Below, piece by piece: positions 22,133 to 23,326 of a stretch of 39,216 nt of DNA. The stretch is from Candidatus Poribacteria bacterium (GTDB lineage: Bacteria > Poribacteria > WGA-4E > JAJDTR01): the NCBI GenBank assembly GCA_022827055.1, contig JAJDTR010000073.1, positions 1 to 39,216 of the forward strand, read 5' to 3'. The notes below the pieces were generated by a model. The model was not told where the DNA came from and did not search any database. It was given only the letters and a program-made list of their open reading frames with translations. The translations under genes were made by a program, and so were the position numbers. Positions within the stretch are counted from its first letter, which is position 1. Each line of letters opens with the position of its first letter.

Positions 22133-23326
22133 CTACACCCAGCCTGCCAGAATCAGATGTCTTAGTTCCAGCAGTAATCGGGGCTGGTGTTTCAACACGG
22201 TCTTGAACATTTGTGTCATGGTAACTTTTTCACTGGGCATTTTCGATATAACGTCAGCACACCTATCAAACATGTCATCACTGAACTTAAACAGCCCGTC
22301 ACGTATACGACAAATATGTTTGAAATGCTTTCCTATCTGATCGTTCCAACGCGTCTGATAGGCGCTAAGGGCCTTGGCGGAAACATCGCCGATTCTGATT
22401 CCCTCGACTGCGGCTTCTGCCGCGAATTGACCTGAATACATTGCGTTAGCAATCCCTCCGCCGGAGATGGGATCACTATGGTGTGCGGCATCACCTATTA
22501 GGAGGATTCCATCGCCAACAATTTCGGGTAGACTATCGCCGACCGGCACGCAACCGACGACTTGAGCCAAGATTCTGCCATCGGGAAATTTACGTTTCAC
22601 AAACTCATTCAAGTAATCGATGGCGAGTTTTCCGCCCTTTCCGGAGATAGTGCCCCCAATGCCAACCCCTACGTTCGCGATGTTTTTCCCTTTTGGAAAA
22701 ACCCAGATGTATCCGCGTGGAGCAATCTCGCGTCCGACATAGAAGTCACAATAATCTGGAATGATGTCAATGTTAGAAACCAAGTATTGCGCGCAGATGT
22801 CAACATCACGCAAATCGTGAGTGCTATCAATTCCCGCCCAACGCGCAACCTGCGATTCGATTCCATCGGCGGCAATCACTGTTTTGGCTTTACAGGTGTA
22901 GTCACGACCGGAATGACGGAAGGTTACCCCGTTGACTGCGCCATCGTCCGACTTTGTGACCGTAGTTACTCTCGCTTTCACTAGCAGTTCGGCACCGGCA
23001 TCTCCTGCCATCGCCGCGAGAACGCGATCGAATACTTTCCGTTCAAGAACATATCCGGCTCGCGGGAAGTCAAGTGTCACTGCTGTTTCGTTAGGCGAGA
23101 AGATTCCGGCGCCGTTAATCTGCTGGGATATCCAGGATGGGTGCGGCTGTATAAATTCGCACAGCGACGCCGTGCCGATCCCCTCCGCTCAGCGAACGGG
23201 GGCGCCGATTTCCTGCCGTTTCTCCAAAAGAAGCACGCTCAGCCCAGTTTCAGCGGCGACCTTCGCGGCAATCGAACCTCCCGGGCCGGCGCCGACGACT
23301 ATAACATCAAATTCGGAGTGAAACAT
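22133..23326 (-). CDS. Geranylgeranyl reductase family flavoprotein with in-frame UGA, predicted selenoprotein
   Basis: Read through one UGA, this is a 397-residue FAD enzyme. The ATG at 23326 gives MFHSEFDVIVVGAGPGG, the FAD-binding GxGxxG (12-17). UGA is codon 46 (plus 23189-23191), in GAPVR-U-AEGIG, where the family has the conserved cysteine of PVRC(A/G)EG. After it come ADG (153-155), YIWVFP followed by a spaced GVG (the GGR motif YxWxFPx7-8GxG) and IGDAAHHSDPISGGGI (from about 277), all intact for 351 codons without another stop. The family saturates prenyl chains, including those of archaeal ether lipids, using ferredoxin or other donors. The start overlaps the ferredoxin stop (TAATG), which favours the full-length reading. 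A shorter start at 23080 would lack the FAD motif. Alternatives: a point nonsense mutation or sequencing error at that codon. Confidence 0.85.
23159..23175 (-). promoter_or_regulatory. Candidate bacterial SECIS hairpin
   Basis: Starting 13 nt after the UGA, GCACGGC-GTC-GCTGTGC forms a 7-bp stem (one G-U pair) with a 3-nt apical loop GUC. The loop starts 20 nt after the UGA and its first base is G. As recalled, bacterial SECIS elements have their apical loop 16-37 nt after the UGA and a G in the first two loop positions, so both features fit. It lies in coding sequence, as expected for SelB-dependent decoding. Confidence 0.6.

Follow-up and report, generated by a model that had tools for sequence, protein, structure and literature searches.

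A geranylgeranyl reductase gene with an in-frame UGA

The stretch of DNA analysed here (the window) is 39,216 nucleotides from a Candidatus Poribacteria bacterium (GenBank assembly GCA_022827055.1, contig JAJDTR010000073.1). On its minus strand lies a geranylgeranyl reductase (GGR) gene with an in-frame UGA, and the features that bear on its reading are as follows.

22133..23326, minus strand: GGR gene of 397 codons, in-frame UGA at codon 46, TAG stop
23189..23191, minus strand: UGA codon 46, predicted selenocysteine (Sec), at the site that is Cys in 3oz2 and SaGGR by alignment; 16 Poribacteria genomes have TGA here and others have Cys
23159..23175, minus strand: predicted bSECIS hairpin with a 7-bp stem, a 3-nt loop (GUC) and a UGA-loop spacing of 20 nt
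23326..23544, minus strand: small dicluster 4Fe-4S ferredoxin (Fer4 domains) directly upstream of GGR with a 1-nt overlap; predicted electron donor
21326..22072, minus strand: geranylgeranylglyceryl phosphate synthase (GGGPS); TIGR01769, 221.5 bits, cut-off 161.55
25086..25946, minus strand: UbiA prenyltransferase, likely digeranylgeranylglyceryl phosphate synthase (DGGGPS); NF009521, 212 bits, below the cut-off of 296; PF01040, 148.8 bits
26031..27020, minus strand: second, divergent UbiA prenyltransferase; PF01040, 73.4 bits

Read along the minus strand from 23326 to 22133 with TGA as U, the frame yields 397 residues with a single U at position 46 (GAPVR-U-AEGIG), followed by TAG; no open frame was found on the plus strand at 22133..23326. 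The preliminary description had proposed one in-frame UGA within a 397-residue GGR, placed at the family's conserved cysteine, with the FAD motif ahead of it and the start ATG overlapping the ferredoxin stop. All of this was borne out: alignment places residue 46 at the Cys of both solved GGRs, the FAD-binding Rossmann start occupies residues 5–35, and the ATG has one base in common with the TAA of the upstream ferredoxin. That UGA is a normal stop here, as had also been stated, agrees with the stops counted in 35 genes of the window chosen by eye (13 TGA, 12 TAG and 10 TAA, alongside 119 TGG codons). TGA also serves as the true terminal stop of the UGA-containing GGR genes of two other genomes, G021 and G004, and together with the TGA stops of the window this rules out a global reassignment of UGA.

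With UGA taken as Sec, the protein scores 242.1 bits against TIGR02032 (cut-off 158.8) and 95.7 against PF22578 (cut-off 27). The GGR motifs GxGxxG, RxxFD, YxWxFP and GGG, taken from the lists given in PMC10821996 and PMC6309074, are all present in it (P0001) and are invariant or nearly so in the family alignment (A1). The scores against the archaeal digeranylgeranylglycerophospholipid reductase equivalogs fall short of their cut-offs (NF041160, 304.5 against 780; NF041080, 181.8 against 580), and the gene is therefore not filed as such an equivalog. Residue 46 is the site of Cys47 in SaGGR and Cys45 in TaGGR, with a UGA codon (predicted Sec) in place of Cys. A review describes Cys47 as conserved across all archaeal GGRs and as essential to the Sulfolobus acidocaldarius enzyme, some Sulfolobus paralogs being without it (PMC10821996). 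The GGRs shown to be active in one survey all carry this Cys, directly behind the flavin ring (PMC6309074). Its role, as these sources and a third present it, is a matter of speculation, either electron transfer or flavin tuning (PMC10821996, PMC12004948, PMC6309074).

UGA and cysteine at codon 46 among relatives

We searched 84 genomes of the phylum Poribacteria for GGR at E <= 1e-15 and found it in 26. Within the order to which the window belongs, every genome whose GGR covers the site has TGA there (16/16). Thirteen of these genes are otherwise intact: G000 (the window's own genome), G001 (a congener), G002, G003, G004, G005, G006, G009, G011, G012, G021, G031 and G034. The remaining three have an extra TAG (G046), lie in two frames (G033) or reach the end of the contig after the UGA (G070). 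All eight covering Poribacteria outside the order carry Cys (G073, G074, G075, G076, G079, G080, G082 and G083), and the GGRs of G019 and G077 are fragments in which the site is not covered. Among 80 loci from named genomes, 74 have TGC or TGT, two have no motif match and four have TGA, these four all being Poribacteria among the 16. The preliminary description had suggested asking whether Cys and UGA alternate at this codon in homologues; those checked carry either one or the other.

In a survey that was not exhaustive, no UGA-containing GGR was found outside Poribacteria among the 80 loci from named genomes or the 120 relatives listed out of 4104 proteins in a protein search (7998 candidates scored). 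Sixty-three of these 120 reach residue 46, and all have Cys, at 47–67% identity. The other 57 are 67.5–94% identical to the window protein and start at residue 53 or later, missing residue 46, a pattern which suggests, for entries seen as proteins and not as DNA, that gene callers have shortened UGA forms.

All 13 intact Sec forms fell into one clade (support 100/99) in a tree built from 59 proteins; this clade adjoins Cys forms, including that of G074, and a single change is needed, the root of the tree being for drawing only. G046, G033 and G070 were left out of both the protein alignment and the tree, which took 19 of 20 loci chosen out of the 80 from named genomes; L083, with one stop in the matched stretch, was omitted from the tree.

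The codons downstream of the UGA are under strong purifying selection: dN/dS is 0.033 between G000 and G001, and the median is 0.039 for the 12 of 78 pairs with defined dS, synonymous sites being mostly saturated. Codons 1–45 are also conserved under purifying selection (median dN/dS 0.056; 36/78 pairs). Separately, we observed that GGR is apparently decaying in family f2, with the extra TAG in G046:C136:31529-32719, the two frames in G033:C133:66263-67452 and a C-terminal remnant of 43 codons in G017:C32:14130-14258.

These data bear on two alternatives. Were the TGA a Cys codon mutated in a dead gene, or a product of sequencing error or misassembly, it might be expected where genes decay, as GGR seems to do in family f2 (G046, G033 and G017). 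Sequencing error is implausible because 16 genomes share this TGA, in 13 cases within a gene that is otherwise intact, and a dead gene is at odds with the low dN/dS on both sides of the codon and with the 57 listed database relatives, from several sources, that begin past the site. As an account of the whole set, error or pseudogenization is refuted by the recurrence of TGA in 16 genomes and by purifying selection, and we give it practically no weight. Alternatively, translation could begin past the UGA, the shorter protein being the true product, just as those 57 of the 120 listed relatives are recorded. Such a product would be without the FAD-binding Rossmann start and the active-site position; codons 1–45, beginning 1 nt into the ferredoxin stop, are under purifying selection; and the inferred late starts are scattered over 15 positions, some of which may be contig ends. 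A late start is thus extremely unlikely.

A predicted bSECIS hairpin and the selenium machinery

In the UGA genes a predicted hairpin of 17 bases starts 13 bases past the UGA, with a 7-bp stem and the loop GUC, GGC or GGA. Six or seven of the seven stem positions pair in all 15 testable UGA genes, as against one to three of seven in eight Cys homologues (these counts leave out G070 and include L027 and G082). When codons were resampled synonymously for the 14 distinct sequences, the observed mean of 6.79 paired positions was reached in 0 of 20,000 draws (4.40 on average, sd 0.27), and across these 14 genes the hairpin's offset is the best of 1174 in the gene for such a structure.

Covariation was analysed on the same 14 distinct hairpins, the identical G002 and G005 sequences being entered once. 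Three of five measures exceeded every one of 500 shuffles: paired cells (96.9% vs 86.1), double-change cells (14 vs 5.6) and the covariation score (0.468 vs 0.243). The other two were no better than shuffles, namely pairs with a double change (3 vs 2.5; 273/500 as high) and further pair types (9 vs 7.9; 116/500). Sliding the stem partner abolishes most pairing. In G003, G006 and G012, a change of residue 56 from Cys to His occurs together with a change in the opposite stem arm.

The bSECIS model, as set out in PMC13188914, has a loop of 3–9 nt, a stem of 4–16 bp, a G in the first two loop positions, a spacing of 16–37 nt and an MFE <= -7.5. The window hairpin fits all of these constraints (MFE -15.0), as do 13 of the 15 UGA genes overall. 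The other two are G003 and G006, where a single mismatch frees the uppermost part of the stem and leaves 5 bp and a 7-nt loop with G in third place, a fold outside the strict model. Folding energies range from -9.5 to -17.9 in UGA genes and from -9.2 to -13.1 in six Cys genes, so energy alone is no discriminator. A search of Rfam over window positions 22000–24000 gave no match, a result that means no more than that the hairpin does not hit an Rfam family.

We found selA (590 bits), selB (352 bits) and a tRNA-Sec (anticodon TCA) adjoining one another on contig C156 of G000. The tRNA scores 76 bits and ARAGORN concurs; the cut-off alone is lax, being passed by 5 of 14 control genomes. In this assembly, which is 92% complete, selD was not found; the best match was typed HypE-like and is not claimed as SelD. 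Of the Sec machinery that the preliminary description had proposed looking for in the genome, selA, selB and tRNA-Sec are therefore present and selD was not found. The congener G001 does have a selD, with an in-frame TGA of its own. Across the 16 TGA genomes, tRNA-Sec reaches at least 70 bits in 15 (not G009), selB passes its cut-off in 14 (not G009 or G070) and selD in 15 (not G000); G009, which has the UGA gene and neither selB over its cut-off nor a tRNA-Sec of at least 70 bits, is 80% complete, and the completeness of G000, G009 and G070 is 80–92%. One in-frame TGA is carried by selD in 75 of the 76 genomes in which it passes the cut-off, the exception, G084, belonging to another phylum. 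Judged from these genes, Sec decoding looks general in Poribacteria. The Cys-type genome G073 has neither selB nor selD over the cut-offs, and its best tRNA-Sec reaches 48 bits (cut-off 47); other Cys-type genomes, e.g. G074, do have Sec machinery, and the machinery alone is therefore no predictor of the Sec form.

The UGA could also be read as Cys, Trp or some other standard residue, through a suppressor tRNA or an altered genetic code. Relatives do carry Cys at the site, and a UGA-reading tRNA-Cys is known elsewhere. On the other side, UGA often terminates genes in the window and ends two of the UGA-containing GGR genes themselves, the hairpin and the set of SelA, SelB and tRNA-Sec are the requirements of Sec, and selD shares the in-frame TGA. 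We consider this reading very unlikely. Taken as a whole, the data make us highly confident in the prediction of an archaeal-type GGR whose in-frame UGA would be read as Sec at the family's active-site cysteine position.

Gene neighbourhood, predicted function and related systems

The genes of the cluster run in one direction in the order UbiA, UbiA, rRNA methyltransferase, ferredoxin, GGR, GGGPS. We compared 21 relatives (15 UGA and 6 Cys loci, leaving out the fragments in G019 and G017). Twelve of the 15 UGA loci have a ferredoxin homologue close upstream, and five of the six Cys loci have one upstream (2 kb off in G075); GGGPS lies after GGR in 7/15 and 3/6, respectively. The second UbiA is retained near the cluster in several relatives. 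After GGGPS in the window come hrcA, grpE and dnaJ (18209-22072, GGGPS included), and hrcA and grpE also follow GGGPS in G001, G004, G012, G019 and G021.

For the Methanosarcina acetivorans GGR, ferredoxin-driven saturation of ether-lipid chains has been reported (PMC9385802), and FCB bacteria have been proposed to make such ether lipids (PMC7852524). By analogy, the gene linkage in the window fits a ferredoxin-driven saturation of ether-lipid chains. Several Cys-type relatives (P0075, P0082–P0093 and several of P0098–P0117, with P0098 and P0105 being named Poribacteria) have 4Fe-4S ferredoxin domains fused to GGR in proteins of 465–538 aa, which agrees with ferredoxin as the donor. A search for glycerol-1-phosphate dehydrogenase (G1PDH) with PF13685 gave four matches in G000. 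One, at G000:C11:22500-25500 (L184), is a 359-aa protein of the iron-alcohol-dehydrogenase family, nearest to the G1PDH 5fb3 (E 9.9e-16), and is a candidate source of glycerol-1-phosphate; another, L181, resembles 3-dehydroquinate synthase by eye.

GGGPS is present in 74 of 87 genomes searched and in 25 of the 26 with GGR, G080 having a weak match only. In the window's order, 55 of 72 genomes are without GGR and 45 of those 55 retain GGGPS, so the presence of GGGPS does not always call for GGR. Those order genomes (within G000–G071) that have GGGPS and no GGR may produce unsaturated ether lipids or rely on a different reductase.

The enzyme might instead act on some other polyprenyl compound, such as a quinone, a carotenoid, a polyprenol or a sterol side chain. 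GGRs show substrate promiscuity, and menaquinone and sterol reductases belong to the same family (PMC12004948); the equivalog cut-offs for the archaeal lipid enzymes were not attained, a second UbiA is linked, and GGGPS is kept without GGR in the 45 order genomes. Set against these points are the linkage to GGGPS and a DGGGPS-type UbiA in both UGA and Cys forms, the near-constant presence of GGGPS alongside GGR, and the grouping of the Poribacteria proteins with GGRs of archaea, e.g. Methanosarcinaceae, in a tree whose root is for drawing only. We regard another substrate as unlikely, yet worth keeping in mind.

For ether-lipid saturation, we infer the following scheme of Sec insertion, electron route and substrate. 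SelA would make Sec-tRNA-Sec, and SelB, directed by the downstream hairpin, would deliver it to the UGA, giving the full 397-residue flavoprotein. Electrons would reach the FAD from the adjacent 4Fe-4S ferredoxin, and the selenolate, lying behind the isoalloxazine ring, would tune or relay electrons in the way proposed for the cysteine. The enzyme would then hydrogenate the geranylgeranyl chains of ether lipids arising from the linked GGGPS and UbiA enzymes. We think it fairly likely that archaeal-type ether-lipid synthesis in these bacteria includes a selenium-dependent step, Poribacteria having once exchanged the catalytic Cys for Sec in a ferredoxin-driven prenyl-chain hydrogenase and thereby made tail saturation dependent on selenium.

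The 119 prokaryotic selenoprotein families tabulated in an inventory of 2026 include no GGR (PMC13188914), which agrees with the suggestion in the preliminary description that this would be a new selenoprotein. In openly licensed literature, with relevance judged by title, we found no report of a selenoprotein or selenocysteine GGR or of Poribacteria selenoproteins. Because GGR is absent from both, the Poribacteria Sec-GGR would be a new selenoprotein family, one in which a known enzyme takes a selenium form. If so, prenyl reductases would gain their first selenoprotein, and selenium would be tied to the making of ether lipids in bacteria crossing the lipid divide. The natural exchange of Cys for Sec in one clade would provide matched Sec and Cys enzymes for a direct test of the role of the active-site cysteine, and many database entries of this GGR may be cut short after the UGA.

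The entries named FAD-dependent in the inventory are the CoA-disulfide reductase-like family (TIGR03385) and the type III sulfide:quinone reductase (NF049943) (PMC13188914). What they have in common with the Poribacteria GGR is a Sec (here predicted) in an FAD oxidoreductase; they belong to other families, with the Sec motifs UGxP and HxxU given in the inventory, and neither is a prenyl reductase. In the same Poribacteria SelD also has an in-frame TGA, but it is a known selenoprotein family. The loci taken up for SelD were L143–L148 and L170–L177; in the 13 SelD loci looked at for folds (L171 gave no match, and the L172 match is not SelD), the downstream folds vary from -5.1 to -18.0 kcal/mol.

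The archaeal reductases 3OZ2 (Thermoplasma acidophilum) and 3ATQ (S. acidocaldarius) have the same fold, FAD-binding motif, YxWxFP, GGG and active-site position as the window GGR, at 38% and 26% identity, respectively, in structural alignment; they differ from it in having Cys where the window gene has UGA (predicted Sec) and in that its host is bacterial. The Cys-type GGRs of other Poribacteria and of FCB bacteria (Cloacimonadota, Ignavibacteriota and Neomarinimicrobiota) belong to the same enzyme family but have a Cys codon, and the eight Cys-type Poribacteria genes checked are without the hairpin of the UGA genes. Several Cys-type Poribacteria have a similar UbiA-ferredoxin-GGR-GGGPS cluster, and the ferredoxin neighbour in the window resembles the arrangement described for the M. 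acetivorans GGR (PMC9385802).
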